From a virus, in IMG/VR virus record IMGVR_UViG_3300010354_000272, positions 1 to 35,131 of that record: a stretch of DNA of 35,131 nt; one strand, 5' to 3'. A program made the position numbers and the translations under genes. Of the stretch, positions 27,644-35,131 are shown piece by piece (position 1 is the stretch's first letter; the number at the start of each line of letters is the position of its first letter). The notes beneath the pieces were generated by a model. The model made no database searches and was not told the DNA's origin. It saw only the letters and a program-made list of their open reading frames with translations.

Positions 27644-27938
27644 TGATGAGTGACAAGCATTCAATTGCTACTTGATTAGCCGCCGCTTTTTTCACCAAGT
27701 TCGCAATGTTTCTTTTTGGAACATATGCGACATTGGGCGGTAGGCTTATGATTAAATGCGACACCACTTTTTTGAGTTTATCGTTTTGCGGTAACTCAGT
27801 TAGAAGTGATATCTCATCCACCCATCGGTTAAATTCCGTCATGCCTTGAGGAAGACGTTCTGGAATAAAAGAGTTTAACCAATTCCACAGCTTAGATAAG
27901 CGCAGAATCAGGTTTTGAACCATTAGTGATAGTTTCAT
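27603..27938 (-). CDS. Hypothetical phage protein, 111 aa
   Basis: ATG start with AAAGAAG upstream; overlaps the previous gene by 47 bases and the next by 41. It has a hydrophobic start (MKLSLMVQNLILRLSKLWNWL), then LPQGMTEFNRWVDEISLLTELPQND, then FxxxLVKKAAANQVAIECLSLI. The LPxGxxEFxxW...AANQVA pattern belongs to a family common in environmental phages, with no known function. The long overlaps suggest strong compaction. Confidence 0.5.
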   Translation of the reverse strand: MKLSLMVQNLILRLSKLWNWLNSFIPERLPQGMTEFNRWVDEISLLTELPQNDKLKKVVSHLIISLPPNVAYVPKRNIANLVKKAAANQVAIECLSLINEREQQNTTQEVN

Positions 27939-28158
27939 TTATTTCTTCTTTCACTTTTTCTTTTGTTTTTTCTAACTGCTGAGCAAGCCTGTTCATTGCG
28001 GCAATTTTTTGATTAATTGCTTCGTGAGTTAAATCCACTTGCTTGTTCAAAGCATCAAGCTCAAGAGTGTGGCGACCTAATTGAAATTGTAGGTTGCTAA
28101 GCTCCTGGTGAAGCTCCTGAATCGTTATTGGTTTTTTATCTTTTTTAAATAGGCTCAT
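27892..28158 (-). CDS. Coiled-coil protein, 88 aa
   Basis: ATG start overlapping the previous stop by four bases. Residues about 13-75 form one continuous helix with heptad-like hydrophobic spacing (ITIQELHQELSNLQFQLGRH, TLELDALNKQVDLTHEAIN, QKIAAMNRLAQQLEKTKE). No signal peptide or membrane segment. Probably a small dimeric or trimeric coiled coil. Partner unknown. Confidence 0.5.
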   Translation of the reverse strand: MSLFKKDKKPITIQELHQELSNLQFQLGRHTLELDALNKQVDLTHEAINQKIAAMNRLAQQLEKTKEKVKEEINETITNGSKPDSALI

Positions 28159-29179: not shown

Positions 29180-29402
29180 ATTCTTTTTTTCTGGCGTGAA
29201 TTTCTTTCATGCGAAGTTCGCGAACCATTTTGCGAAATTCTTCAACGCTGATCATGTTATCGACATTTCTCTCAAGCTCTTCTGCTTTTTGTTTTTCTTC
29301 TTTGGTTACAATCTTTTTGTTTTTTTCTTTTGATTCTCGACAGGCCTGATTAAAGATTTCTCTAACTTCATCGGAATCTTTTTTCGTATAAATCCGTGTC
29401 AT
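29160..29402 (-). CDS. Small charged helical protein, 80 aa
   Basis: I choose the ATG at 29400-29402, which has AAGGGGAAG upstream, over an ATG at 29454-29456. It overlaps the helicase end by 35 bases. The protein (MTRIYTKKDSDEVREIFNQA, CRESKEKNKKIVTKEEKQKA, ...SVEEFRKMVRELRMKEIH) is very rich in Lys and Glu and almost wholly helical. No motif recognised. It may be an accessory to the helicase or a nucleic-acid-binding helical protein. Confidence 0.45.
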   Translation of the reverse strand: MTRIYTKKDSDEVREIFNQACRESKEKNKKIVTKEEKQKAEELERNVDNMISVEEFRKMVRELRMKEIHARKKEYESEET

Positions 29403-30417
29403 ATGGCTTCCCCTTTGAGTATTCAATTGGTGCTGCGATCGTTGGATATGTTGCATTTTTTGCCCAATGTGGGCCAGTTGTCAAAAGCTCCGGATCTTCC
29501 GCAAACTTTATTTTGGCTAAGTTGTACTTCTTCATGAACTCACCAGTGTTTTTATCAAAGCTTACTATGCCAGCAAACTCTCTTGCTTCCGGTGCGGTTC
29601 TGCTTTTAGCCAAATGAAAGTACATTGGAAAAACTCTCTCTGGTGGTAACCCTTGCTTTTTGTCGTCTGGAACTGGGGAAATAATTAACACATCCGTTGC
29701 GATGTCAGTAAGAGCAGCTGTGCCTCGGATGTCTTCGTACTTTGGCAACGTTCGTTTGGTGTGACTACCGAAATCGTTTTTTCTTAGCTGTGCAAGAATG
29801 ACAATGGGGGCATCTAAATCCTCCTTGAGCCTTTTGATTGAGTGAATTGTTTTTTTAAGAGCTTCAACTTCATCGCCCTCTAAAAAGAAATGGTGAAGAT
29901 GGTCTAAGATTATCAGATCTGGTTTCTCTTCGCTCTGAATTAATTCTTCAACGTCTGCTTTAAACATCTCAGGCGAATAAATTCCAGTTTCGTATCTGGT
30001 CACTAAAGTCTGGGTGTCTAAGTCTAATTGCTTTCTTGCTTCTTTCTCAACAGCATGCCAAGCGCCATCGTACCCAGCATGAAGCCATTCTCGGTATCTA
30101 GGCTTTGGAATGTTTGGGTAGTGCTGAGACAAAAGCCTTGTTGTGTAATAAAAAAGCTGTCGCCTTTCGATTTCGTGCTTCTCTGCTTCTAGGGCAAAAT
30201 AGACTACTTTGTTTTGTTGCTTTGCTGCGAATAAGGCTAATTGAACGCCGAAAAATGTTTTTCCAACTCCGGTCTTTGCGGCAACTAATAATAAATTTTC
30301 TTTGTCTAACCCTCCTGCAAGGGCGTCGTCTATCCAGGGATTGCCAGTGGGAGTAACTGAGGCGGCAATAAGATGGCGGTGTAACTGTTCTGCGCTAAGT
30401 TCTTTTTGTTCCGACAT
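29368..30417 (-). CDS. DnaB-like replicative helicase (RecA-type ATPase), 349 aa
   Basis: ATG start. The RecA-like core shows Walker A AAKTGVGKT (46-54), a YFALEAEK segment (73-80), Walker B LIILDHLHHF (168-177), the sensor AQLRKN (209-214), and DIRGTAALTDIATDVLII (229-246), which matches the DnaB DxRGSGxIEQDADxV motif. There is no N-terminal DnaB domain, and length is below the usual 450 residues, so this is a C-domain-only helicase. It would unwind DNA at the fork. The neighbouring O-like gene is its likely loader. Without a phage polymerase it must work with the host replisome. Confidence 0.85.
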   Translation of the reverse strand: MSEQKELSAEQLHRHLIAASVTPTGNPWIDDALAGGLDKENLLLVAAKTGVGKTFFGVQLALFAAKQQNKVVYFALEAEKHEIERRQLFYYTTRLLSQHYPNIPKPRYREWLHAGYDGAWHAVEKEARKQLDLDTQTLVTRYETGIYSPEMFKADVEELIQSEEKPDLIILDHLHHFFLEGDEVEALKKTIHSIKRLKEDLDAPIVILAQLRKNDFGSHTKRTLPKYEDIRGTAALTDIATDVLIISPVPDDKKQGLPPERVFPMYFHLAKSRTAPEAREFAGIVSFDKNTGEFMKKYNLAKIKFAEDPELLTTGPHWAKNATYPTIAAPIEYSKGKPYDTDLYEKRFR

Positions 30418-30429
30418 TTTGTTTTTTCT

Positions 30430-31218
30430 CTAGTCACCTCCCGCTGTTGCTTCATCCGACCAAATGTACTTTTGGTTTTCGGGGGTGTTTAACTCGTCAT
30501 CGTAATTACCCTCAAAAACCTTCTGGTGGTTAGCGTCATTTTTTAAAATCCAATCAATCGTTGCTTTCCAATCATTTGACCCGTTGCAGAAAGAGCTCTT
30601 TGCCATTTTGGTGATTACATGTTGCCAGTAACCAAGCTCAGGAACTTCTTTCCACCGAGCTTCCCATTTTTTTTGACGGCTTTTGGTCATTCCCCTGGCT
30701 TTAGGCAGTTCGCCGCAGAAAGTATTCCACAGGGTTTGTAGGCAAGGTATTTCTTTTTTACCCAATTCTTCTTTTCCTACCAACCGATCCCCAGAATCTT
30801 TTGGCGGTAGAGGCAAAGCGCAAGCTTTGACGTCTTTGACGTATATGTTCTGTTCTGTATTGTTATGTTCTGTTATGTTATGTTGCTTGAGTAAATTGTG
30901 AGTTTGTTGTGAGTCCGATGACAGTATGCTCACGGTACCGTTTTCTTCTAGCATCTTAATTGCTGATATTATTGAAGATTCCGATATCTCGCAAAGCTTC
31001 ACAAATCTACTGATTTTTATAGAAATGGTGTCAGTATCTTTTCGACAACACTCGCAAAGAAGTTGTATGTAAAACCACTTTTGTTCGGCGTTAAGGCCAA
31101 ATAAGCCGTGGGAAGTCCCACAATCCATGTTGACCCTAAACCAGTATTTGTACCTGGCCCGTTCGCTTTTTGATTGGTACTTTTCCCAACCAACAATTTT
31201 AAGCAGTATTTCTTCCAT
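30430..31218 (-). CDS. O-like replication initiator/helicase loader, 262 aa
   Basis: ATG start. The N-terminal half (about 22-98) has the winged-helix layout of phage replisome organisers (YKYWFRVNMDCGTSHGLFGL, then WFYIQLLCECCRKDTDTISI and ISESSIISAIKMLEENG). A low-complexity linker (about 100-125, rich in Gln/Asn/His/Thr) follows. The C-terminal part (about 160-240: WEARWKEVPELGYWQHVITK, then NDWKATIDWILKNDANHQKV FEG) resembles helicase-loading domains. It sits directly before the helicase. Its linker-coding DNA carries ordered direct repeats (30825-30914), as the lambda O gene carries its origin. DNA-binding and loader roles are inferred from domain order. Confidence 0.7.
   Translation of the reverse strand: MEEILLKIVGWEKYQSKSERARYKYWFRVNMDCGTSHGLFGLNAEQKWFYIQLLCECCRKDTDTISIKISRFVKLCEISESSIISAIKMLEENGTVSILSSDSQQTHNLLKQHNITEHNNTEQNIYVKDVKACALPLPPKDSGDRLVGKEELGKKEIPCLQTLWNTFCGELPKARGMTKSRQKKWEARWKEVPELGYWQHVITKMAKSSFCNGSNDWKATIDWILKNDANHQKVFEGNYDDELNTPENQKYIWSDEATAGGD
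30825..30842. repeat. Perfect 9-bp tandem repeat CTTTGACGT x2
   Basis: CTTTGACGT occurs at 30825-30833 and again at 30834-30842 with no gap. It encodes part of VKDVKAC on the minus strand. It directly borders the pentanucleotide run. Confidence 0.75.
30846..30885. repeat. Pentanucleotide tandem repeat, eight TGTTN units
   Basis: Forty bases read as TGTTC, TGTTC, TGTAT, TGTTA, TGTTC, TGTTA, TGTTA, TGTTG. Seven of eight units fit TGTTN. Translated on the minus strand it gives an Asn/His/Thr-rich stretch (QHNITEHNNTEQN). Since five is not a multiple of three, unit gain or loss would shift the frame; only changes in groups of three units keep it. Confidence 0.8.
30882..30914. repeat. Three 11-bp iteron-like direct repeats
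   Basis: Units at 30904-30914 (TTGTTGTGAGT), 30893-30903 (AAATTGTGAGT) and 30882-30892 (GTTGCTTGAGT) share the TGAGT ending and a spacing of 11, one helical turn. The first two share TTGTGAGT exactly. The third is diverged and overlaps the pentanucleotide run by four bases. They would place binding sites on one DNA face. Confidence 0.6.
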
Positions 31219-33259: not shown

Positions 33260-33336
33260 ATGTTGCCTTATAGGGATTTGTTTATTACAAAAGCCACAGA
33301 TGCTTGTTTCTCAAGGTGTTTAACAGACAACGCATG

Positions 33337-33371
33337 AGGGGGATCGCGAAAGCGATTCCCCTTTTGTTTTT
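33337..33371 (+). terminator. Plus-strand intrinsic terminator T2 with GAAA loop
   Basis: AGGGGGATCGC (33337-33347) pairs with GCGATTCCCCT (33352-33362), eleven pairs with one G-T, around a GAAA tetraloop. TTTTGTTTTTG follows. This is a near-ideal terminator and lies only five bases before the tRNA. Confidence 0.85.
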
Positions 33372-33375
33372 GTGA

Positions 33376-33452
33376 TGGGGGATGGCAGTCAGGGCGATTG
33401 CACCGAGCTGTTAACTCGGACTAGGTTGGTTCGATCCCAACTCCCCCAGCCA
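33376..33452 (+). tRNA. tRNA-Asn (anticodon GUU)
   Basis: Full cloverleaf on the plus strand: acceptor TGGGGGA/TCCCCCA (seven pairs), D stem GCAG/TTGC, anticodon stem CCGAG/CTCGG with loop CTGTTAA (anticodon GTT), five-base variable arm, T stem GTTGG/CCAAC with TTCGATC loop, discriminator G and an encoded CCA. All stems are intact, so it is probably functional. It reads AAC and AAT codons. It lies opposite to all protein genes, with its CCA directly abutting the stop of the gene at 33453. Confidence 0.93.
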
Positions 33453-34971: not shown

Positions 34972-35131
34972 TTAAACCTGGCGTCCGAGCCTGGTTTGGT
35001 ACGCCTGTACTGCTGTGTATAAATTAGCGGCTTCGGTTGCGTCTAAGCCCTCGCCGACCGTACAAAATGCATAATTTCTGTTGGTAATATATCCGTTGTT
35101 GTATCCGTTGATGTAAATGTTGTCGTTTACC
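34972..35131 (-). CDS. Fibre/lectin-like tail protein, C-terminal part (cut by window end)
   Basis: The frame is open from the window edge to the stop TAA at 34972-34974 (53 codons plus one base). The sequence (VNDNIYINGYNNGYITNRNY, AFCTVGEGLDATEAANLYTA, VQAYQTRLGRQV) is the classic ending of LamG-type phage receptor proteins. It would fit as the C-terminus of the gene whose N-terminus lies at 1-276: same strand and same family. Direct joining of position 1 to 35131 breaks the frame, so an unseen piece of about 300 bases is expected between them. Confidence 0.65.
   Translation of the reverse strand, partial: VNDNIYINGYNNGYITNRNYAFCTVGEGLDATEAANLYTAVQAYQTRLGRQV

Follow-up and report, generated by a model that had tools for sequence, protein, structure and literature searches.

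The replication origin of phage lambda maps inside the O gene (PMC5043065, PMC7466680), where iterons are accompanied by an A+T-rich stretch of 40 bp that opens (PMC5043065), and oriL of phage SPP1, which lies inside gene 38, is composed of direct repeats and an AT-rich unwinding element (PMC6316719). For most uncultured phages the replication origins are unmapped. We analysed a linear virus record from IMG/VR, 35,131 bases long (the whole of this stretch is referred to here as the window) and found within its initiator gene a segment which is very probably an intragenic replication origin of the lambda/SPP1 type in a compact variant, the variant features being iterons spaced one per turn and an opening region built of tandem 5-base units. 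The features concerned are as follows.

30430..31218, minus strand: O/DnaD-like replication initiator gene, 262 amino acids, assigned on the basis of PHROG and AlphaFold2
30882..30925, minus strand: four tandem 11-bp iterons with the core ACTSWCA, proposed initiator binding sites
30845..30884, minus strand: tandem pentanucleotide array of 8 units, AACAN on the coding strand and TGTTN on the plus strand, proposed opening region
30830..30842, minus strand: hairpin 1, ACGTC-AAA-GACGT, formed by two CTTTGACGT copies (30825-30842)
30814..30829, minus strand: hairpin 2, CAAAGC-TTGC-GCTTTG, 3' of the array in gene direction and adjoining hairpin 1
29368..30417, minus strand: DnaB_C-like helicase gene, next downstream of the initiator, 349 amino acids (Pfam DnaB_C 4.6e-18, PHROG 19 3e-29)

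The initiator protein matches DnaD-like and O-like phage initiators, namely PHROG 10469 (4e-21) and PHROG 345 ("replication initiation O-like", 6e-18), the latter being a match to a family profile and not to lambda O itself. It is laid out as an N-terminal winged helix (about residues 1-105), a disordered linker and a C-terminal domain, AlphaFold2 giving a pLDDT of mostly 81-91 for the N-domain (55 at residues 31-40) and of below 50 for the linker, which it predicts to be disordered. A fold search returned generic winged helices at Z 6.5 and lower (all below Z 8), and the N-domain of primosomal DnaB (5wtn) was a weak match among them (Z 5.8 over 89 residues); neither lambda O nor DnaD was among the matches listed, to which we attach no weight. 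The repeat segment sits in the middle of the gene, between the DNA-binding and C-terminal domains, and with the PHROG matches, the low linker pLDDT and the helicase gene adjacent, the preliminary description of an O-like gene with repeats in its linker is supported. The predicted helicase matches the C-terminal part of DnaB only, the N-terminal DnaB domain not being seen, and no helicase-loader family (P-like or gp39-like) was recognised among the immediate neighbours of the initiator gene. Elsewhere in the window, a tRNA-Asn (GTT) lies at 33376-33452 on the plus strand, opposite to the minus-strand genes, within a 392-base gap and just after a strong terminator-like hairpin (33336-33363); there is also a T-rich tract of period 12 inside coding DNA (27933-27973) and a 12-base tandem repeat close to the window end (35090-35115).

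On the plus strand, seven of the eight pentamers of the array fit TGTTN and the third is TGTAT (TACAG on the coding strand); eight TGTTN in a row had been reported earlier, and the row of eight stands while the uniform motif does not. The array has the strongest 5-base periodicity of the window, period 5 scoring 29/36 there and 20 at the next best place, and its local score of 22 stayed out of reach of 300 dinucleotide-shuffled copies of the whole window, whose best was 17, so that the repeat enrichment which had been proposed as a check turns out, for the 5-mer, to be far beyond chance. Cumulative GC skew, proposed alongside it, has no turning point near 30.8 kb and is uninformative, as nearly all genes lie on one strand. 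The period-5 score was reached in 0.025% of synonymous redraws of the segment (and in 0/200 of a separate synonymous shuffle test), and because it is so rare in synonymous draws the protein sequence does not explain the array. The 40-bp stretch is among the 2.4% least stable in the window, and this A+T-rich region, predicted to melt easily, adjoins the iterons directly on their 3' side. The 5-base unit gives one five-residue cycle whatever the frame (HNITE, NRTEQ), and the array carries substitutions yet holds its 5-base register. A plus-strand promoter-like site, antisense to the initiator, overlaps the array (30836-30863) and is placed like the antisense pO of lambda; such sites are not above chance here. 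Nothing relevant on pentamer arrays in phage origins, or on the strings NRTEQNRTEQ and AACAGAACAGAACAG, came up in a literature search, most subscription journals being outside that search.

The 11-bp iterons read, on the coding strand, ACTGTCATCGG (iteron 1, 30925-30915), ACTCACAACAA (iteron 2, 30914-30904), ACTCACAATTT (iteron 3, 30903-30893) and ACTCAAGCAAC (iteron 4, 30892-30882), with the cores ACTGTCA, ACTCACA, ACTCACA and a diverged ACTCAAG in turn. Three 11-base units, one of them diverged, had been described in a segment ending at 30914; the units are real and one is diverged, but they number four and run past that end. They are direct repeats spaced about one per helical turn, and all four lie on one side of the 5-mer array, the order being 11-bp iterons, 5-mer array and hairpins. 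Their period-11 z is 4.1 against synonymous shuffles and the 5'-side test gave P 0.003, with the 11-mer score reached by 1.1% of synonymous draws and by 4.7% of whole-window shuffles; alone, apart from its conservation in a relative, the 11-mer signal is modest. No inverted repeats of at least 12 nt were found in the initiator gene region.

Relatives were obtained via the terminase, which gave twelve related loci (52-80% identity), four of them holding the replication region; a DNA-level search among annotated phages, tblastn with the N-domains of the window and of L012, and a helicase-based scan of viral contigs each returned none. In L296 the initiator N-domain is 66% identical to that of the window, but the C-domain belongs to a different family, and a different gene follows. 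L296 has five 11-base units with the core ACTGACA (ACTCACA in the window) at gene positions 282, 293, 304, 315 and 326, and the units of the window occupy the same positions 293, 304, 315 and 326; an AACAT/AACAG array longer than that of the window occupies gene nucleotides 330-414, with a hairpin after it whose sequence is not that of the window. Linker residues differ between the two though iterons and array persist, and the switch of C-domain and next gene beside the array (window 30430-31218 vs L296 2721-3461) suggests that modules may have been exchanged at the origin. The units of L300 are CGTNACG with period 11 and its array is ACAAN/AACAN; in L303 and L298 the 11-base units come with arrays of 8 and 7 bases, and L012 and L045 (N-domains 45% identical) have a common GAATCTGTACA unit and 5-mer arrays. 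The iteron sequence thus tracks the DNA-binding domain in the two close pairs, although L303 also has the GAATCTGTACA unit, at just 23-30% identity. The 5-mer type of array is retained in L296, L300, L001, L012, L045 and L051, and 11-bp iterons occur again in L300, L012, L045, L303 and L298, each time 5' of an array with 5-, 7- or 8-base units, some relatives having linkers of other residues (KLNETK) and 7-mer or 8-mer arrays. Counting against an origin, the 11-bp period is missing in 2/9 relatives (L001, L051). The comparison with homologues proposed in the preliminary description thus finds the repeats kept while the linker amino acids, and even the C-terminal domain, vary, and its suggestion that the linker is shaped by its DNA function is the best reading.

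Searching viral contigs for runs of five AACAK units yielded 50 stretches, and those in open frames are mostly in initiator linkers, on the coding strand, with DNA methylases as the second group (5/34 array-bearing ORFs of the viral set match them, which we count against an origin). The control unit AAACK, of equal composition, gave 47 stretches, whose ORF matches are also mostly initiators, often after iterons (e.g. the CAGACAA-type 12-base units of L065). In bacterial genomes, AACAG arrays are found mostly between genes, at the ends of contigs or in unrelated frames, which likewise counts against an origin. We therefore rejected AACAK as an initiator-specific unit, the control being also mainly in initiators and bacterial AACAK arrays mostly elsewhere; since AACAK and AAACK behave alike, the common property is that of tandem short units of non-codon period and not one sequence. 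To reduce selection bias, a set of 51 Clostridia prophage initiators, picked by protein family only, was compared with 136 neighbouring ORFs, unmatched for disorder, with periodicity judged beyond codon shuffles. Period 5 was significant in 9/51 initiators (18%) vs 1/136 neighbouring ORFs (0.7%), period 11 in 11/51 vs 3/136, period 22 in 12/51 vs 0/136, and any period not a multiple of three in 34/51 vs 17/136. Iterons lie 5' in 9 and 3' in 2 of the 18 prophage initiators with a short array, and five Clostridia prophage initiators (L259, L268, L276, L278, L291) show a 4-base periodicity at the same linker position. The AACAG pentamer arrays of L015, L024, L033, L043 (and L030) are within phage DNA methyltransferase genes, where slippage in copy number would shift the frame, and these genes may therefore be phase-variable. 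Those of the bacterial contigs L101-L219, frequent at contig ends and between genes and in some cases of many perfect copies, could be either genuine microsatellites or artefacts of assembly.

That the array of the window is itself a slippage-grown microsatellite, in a disordered linker tolerating any polar residues and with no DNA function, is unlikely. AACAG microsatellites are indeed found in unrelated places, the linker is predicted to be disordered, and the arrays of L045 and some others are nearly perfect, but the array of the window is substituted with its 5-base register kept, and in initiators this same position is taken again and again by arrays of differing units (AACAN, AAACK, 7-mers, 8-mers). 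The tandem iterons also stand on one fixed side of the array, and the signal is almost never seen in neighbouring ORFs (controls unmatched for disorder).

The perfect CTTTGACGT pair noticed earlier is present, and it had been taken as iteron-type, giving such repeats on both sides of the array. A second iteron block 3' of the array is not supported: 9.6% of synonymous draws reach the score of the 9-mer pair, which is not significant, and of 36 array-bearing initiators 17 have significant tandem iterons on the 5' side of the array and only 2 on the 3' side. A hairpin, one of two that adjoin each other (30814-30842), is a better reading of the pair than iterons. The level of hairpin 2 was reached by 4% of control segments of the gene, and no control segment was as stable as the DNA fold of the hairpin region (-11.1; synonymous P 0.043), although the hairpins were first picked by eye in this group and the per-sequence P values are not independent of that choice. 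Stronger evidence for hairpins than these P values is given by the compensatory changes among relatives: L303, L298, L296 and L300 have a 15-pair interrupted palindrome directly 3' of the array, with 96.7% of cells paired and 7/15 pairs altered on both sides vs 0-2 in slid controls, in a test of four sequences only, two of them close. Counting against the reading, L045 and L051 have only a weak 3' hairpin, and among the Clostridia prophages none is conspicuous. The hairpin is thus not supported as a universal origin part, and we treat it as part of the origin of this phage group and not as general.

These features also bear on whether the repeats form an operator, by which the initiator binds its own gene and regulates transcription or translation while the origin lies elsewhere. 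Iterons can act in autoregulation in plasmids, and the antisense promoter-like site overlapping the segment, though of a kind not above chance here, would suit such a role; the mid-gene position, the low-stability array, the 3' hairpin and an order the same as that of the lambda ori speak against it, and we consider an operator very unlikely. That protein-level selection for a linker of the HNITE/NRTEQ type created the repeats is extremely improbable: the amino-acid cycle itself does recur in many initiators, but a protein repeat would give a 15-base periodicity and not a 5- or 11-base one, the 5-base signal is above synonymous resampling, and there are relatives with other residues (KLNETK) and 7-mer and 8-mer arrays.

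For the intragenic origin, computation establishes the anatomy, its order, its conservation and a constraint beyond codon choice, and from these we infer binding, melting, helicase recruitment and the start of replication at the segment. The winged-helix domain of the initiator would bind the four 11-bp direct repeats, about one per helical turn, and the nucleoprotein complex would strain the tandem 5-mer array next to them, which is of low stability, and open it. The strands thus opened would then be engaged, with the C-terminal domain of the initiator bringing the phage DnaB-like helicase from the next gene, and the hairpins past the array would mark the far edge and may help to load helicase or primer. 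As the array would be constrained as DNA, and its 5-base unit gives the same five-residue cycle in every frame, the odd linker would be a by-product.

The 5-base register may do no more than keep the DNA soft and unpaired; alternatively, a protein may read it in steps of 5 bases. In bacterial oriC the DnaA-trio, a tandem repeat of short, 3-base units, lies next to the initiator boxes where the DNA opens, and the protein there is DnaA, which is of the AAA+ kind. We put forward tentatively, as a rather doubtful possibility, that the array is a register-bearing element, with the initiator, helicase or loader contacting one opened strand in 5-base steps, and so a phage counterpart of the DnaA-trio that has arisen anew in many phage initiators unrelated to one another, each time with its own 5-, 7- or 8-base unit. 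If true, the array would be more than a soft spot. The 5-base array also offers a direct handle on what initiators without an AAA+ motor recognise in the opening region during strand separation. If the segment is indeed an origin, origins would be readable from sequence alone, in the linker of the initiator gene, as one-turn iterons followed by a short-unit tandem array, and the useful periods for such a search would be those not divisible by three, which repeats at the protein level cannot produce.

Compared with the DnaA-trio, the window has 5-base units and no AAA+ domain is recognised in its initiator. The rep gene of Lactococcus phage TP901-1 (AF304433), whose product is annotated as an experimentally shown replication protein, is similar in being a replication protein gene with a low-complexity AT-rich linker, and differs in that the period test shows no 5-mer array there and, as its sole signal, a weak one at period 15. 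SPP1 oriL, by its published description, is alike in having direct repeats bound by the initiator (predicted sites in the case of the window) and an AT-rich element within the initiator gene; SPP1 differs in also having oriR, the gp39 loader and the gp40 helicase, whereas no gp39-like loader is recognised beside the initiator of the window. In ori lambda (NC_001416) the iterons are four 18-19 bp inverted repeats bound by dimers, compared with four 11-bp direct repeats in the window, the A-rich tract is without a significant short-unit period where the window has a tandem 5-mer array, and the next gene encodes the loader P where that of the window encodes a DnaB-C-like helicase. Iterons that are direct repeats of 11 bp, and a helicase in place of a P-like loader as the next gene, are the reasons why we do not class the segment as a strict lambda ori. 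The same tests applied to lambda O as a positive control found its annotated iterons (period 20 z 5.0, period 23 z 4.3) and, past these, an A-rich tract and then the best hairpin of the gene. The window and ori lambda share a position in the middle of the initiator gene and the order of iterons, A-rich tract and palindrome in gene direction, the palindrome past the low-stability tract of the window being weaker than that of lambda and split in two, and with a layout that matches the lambda ori in this way the lambda-type logic proposed in the preliminary description, with its predicted binding and replication, is the best reading of the segment.
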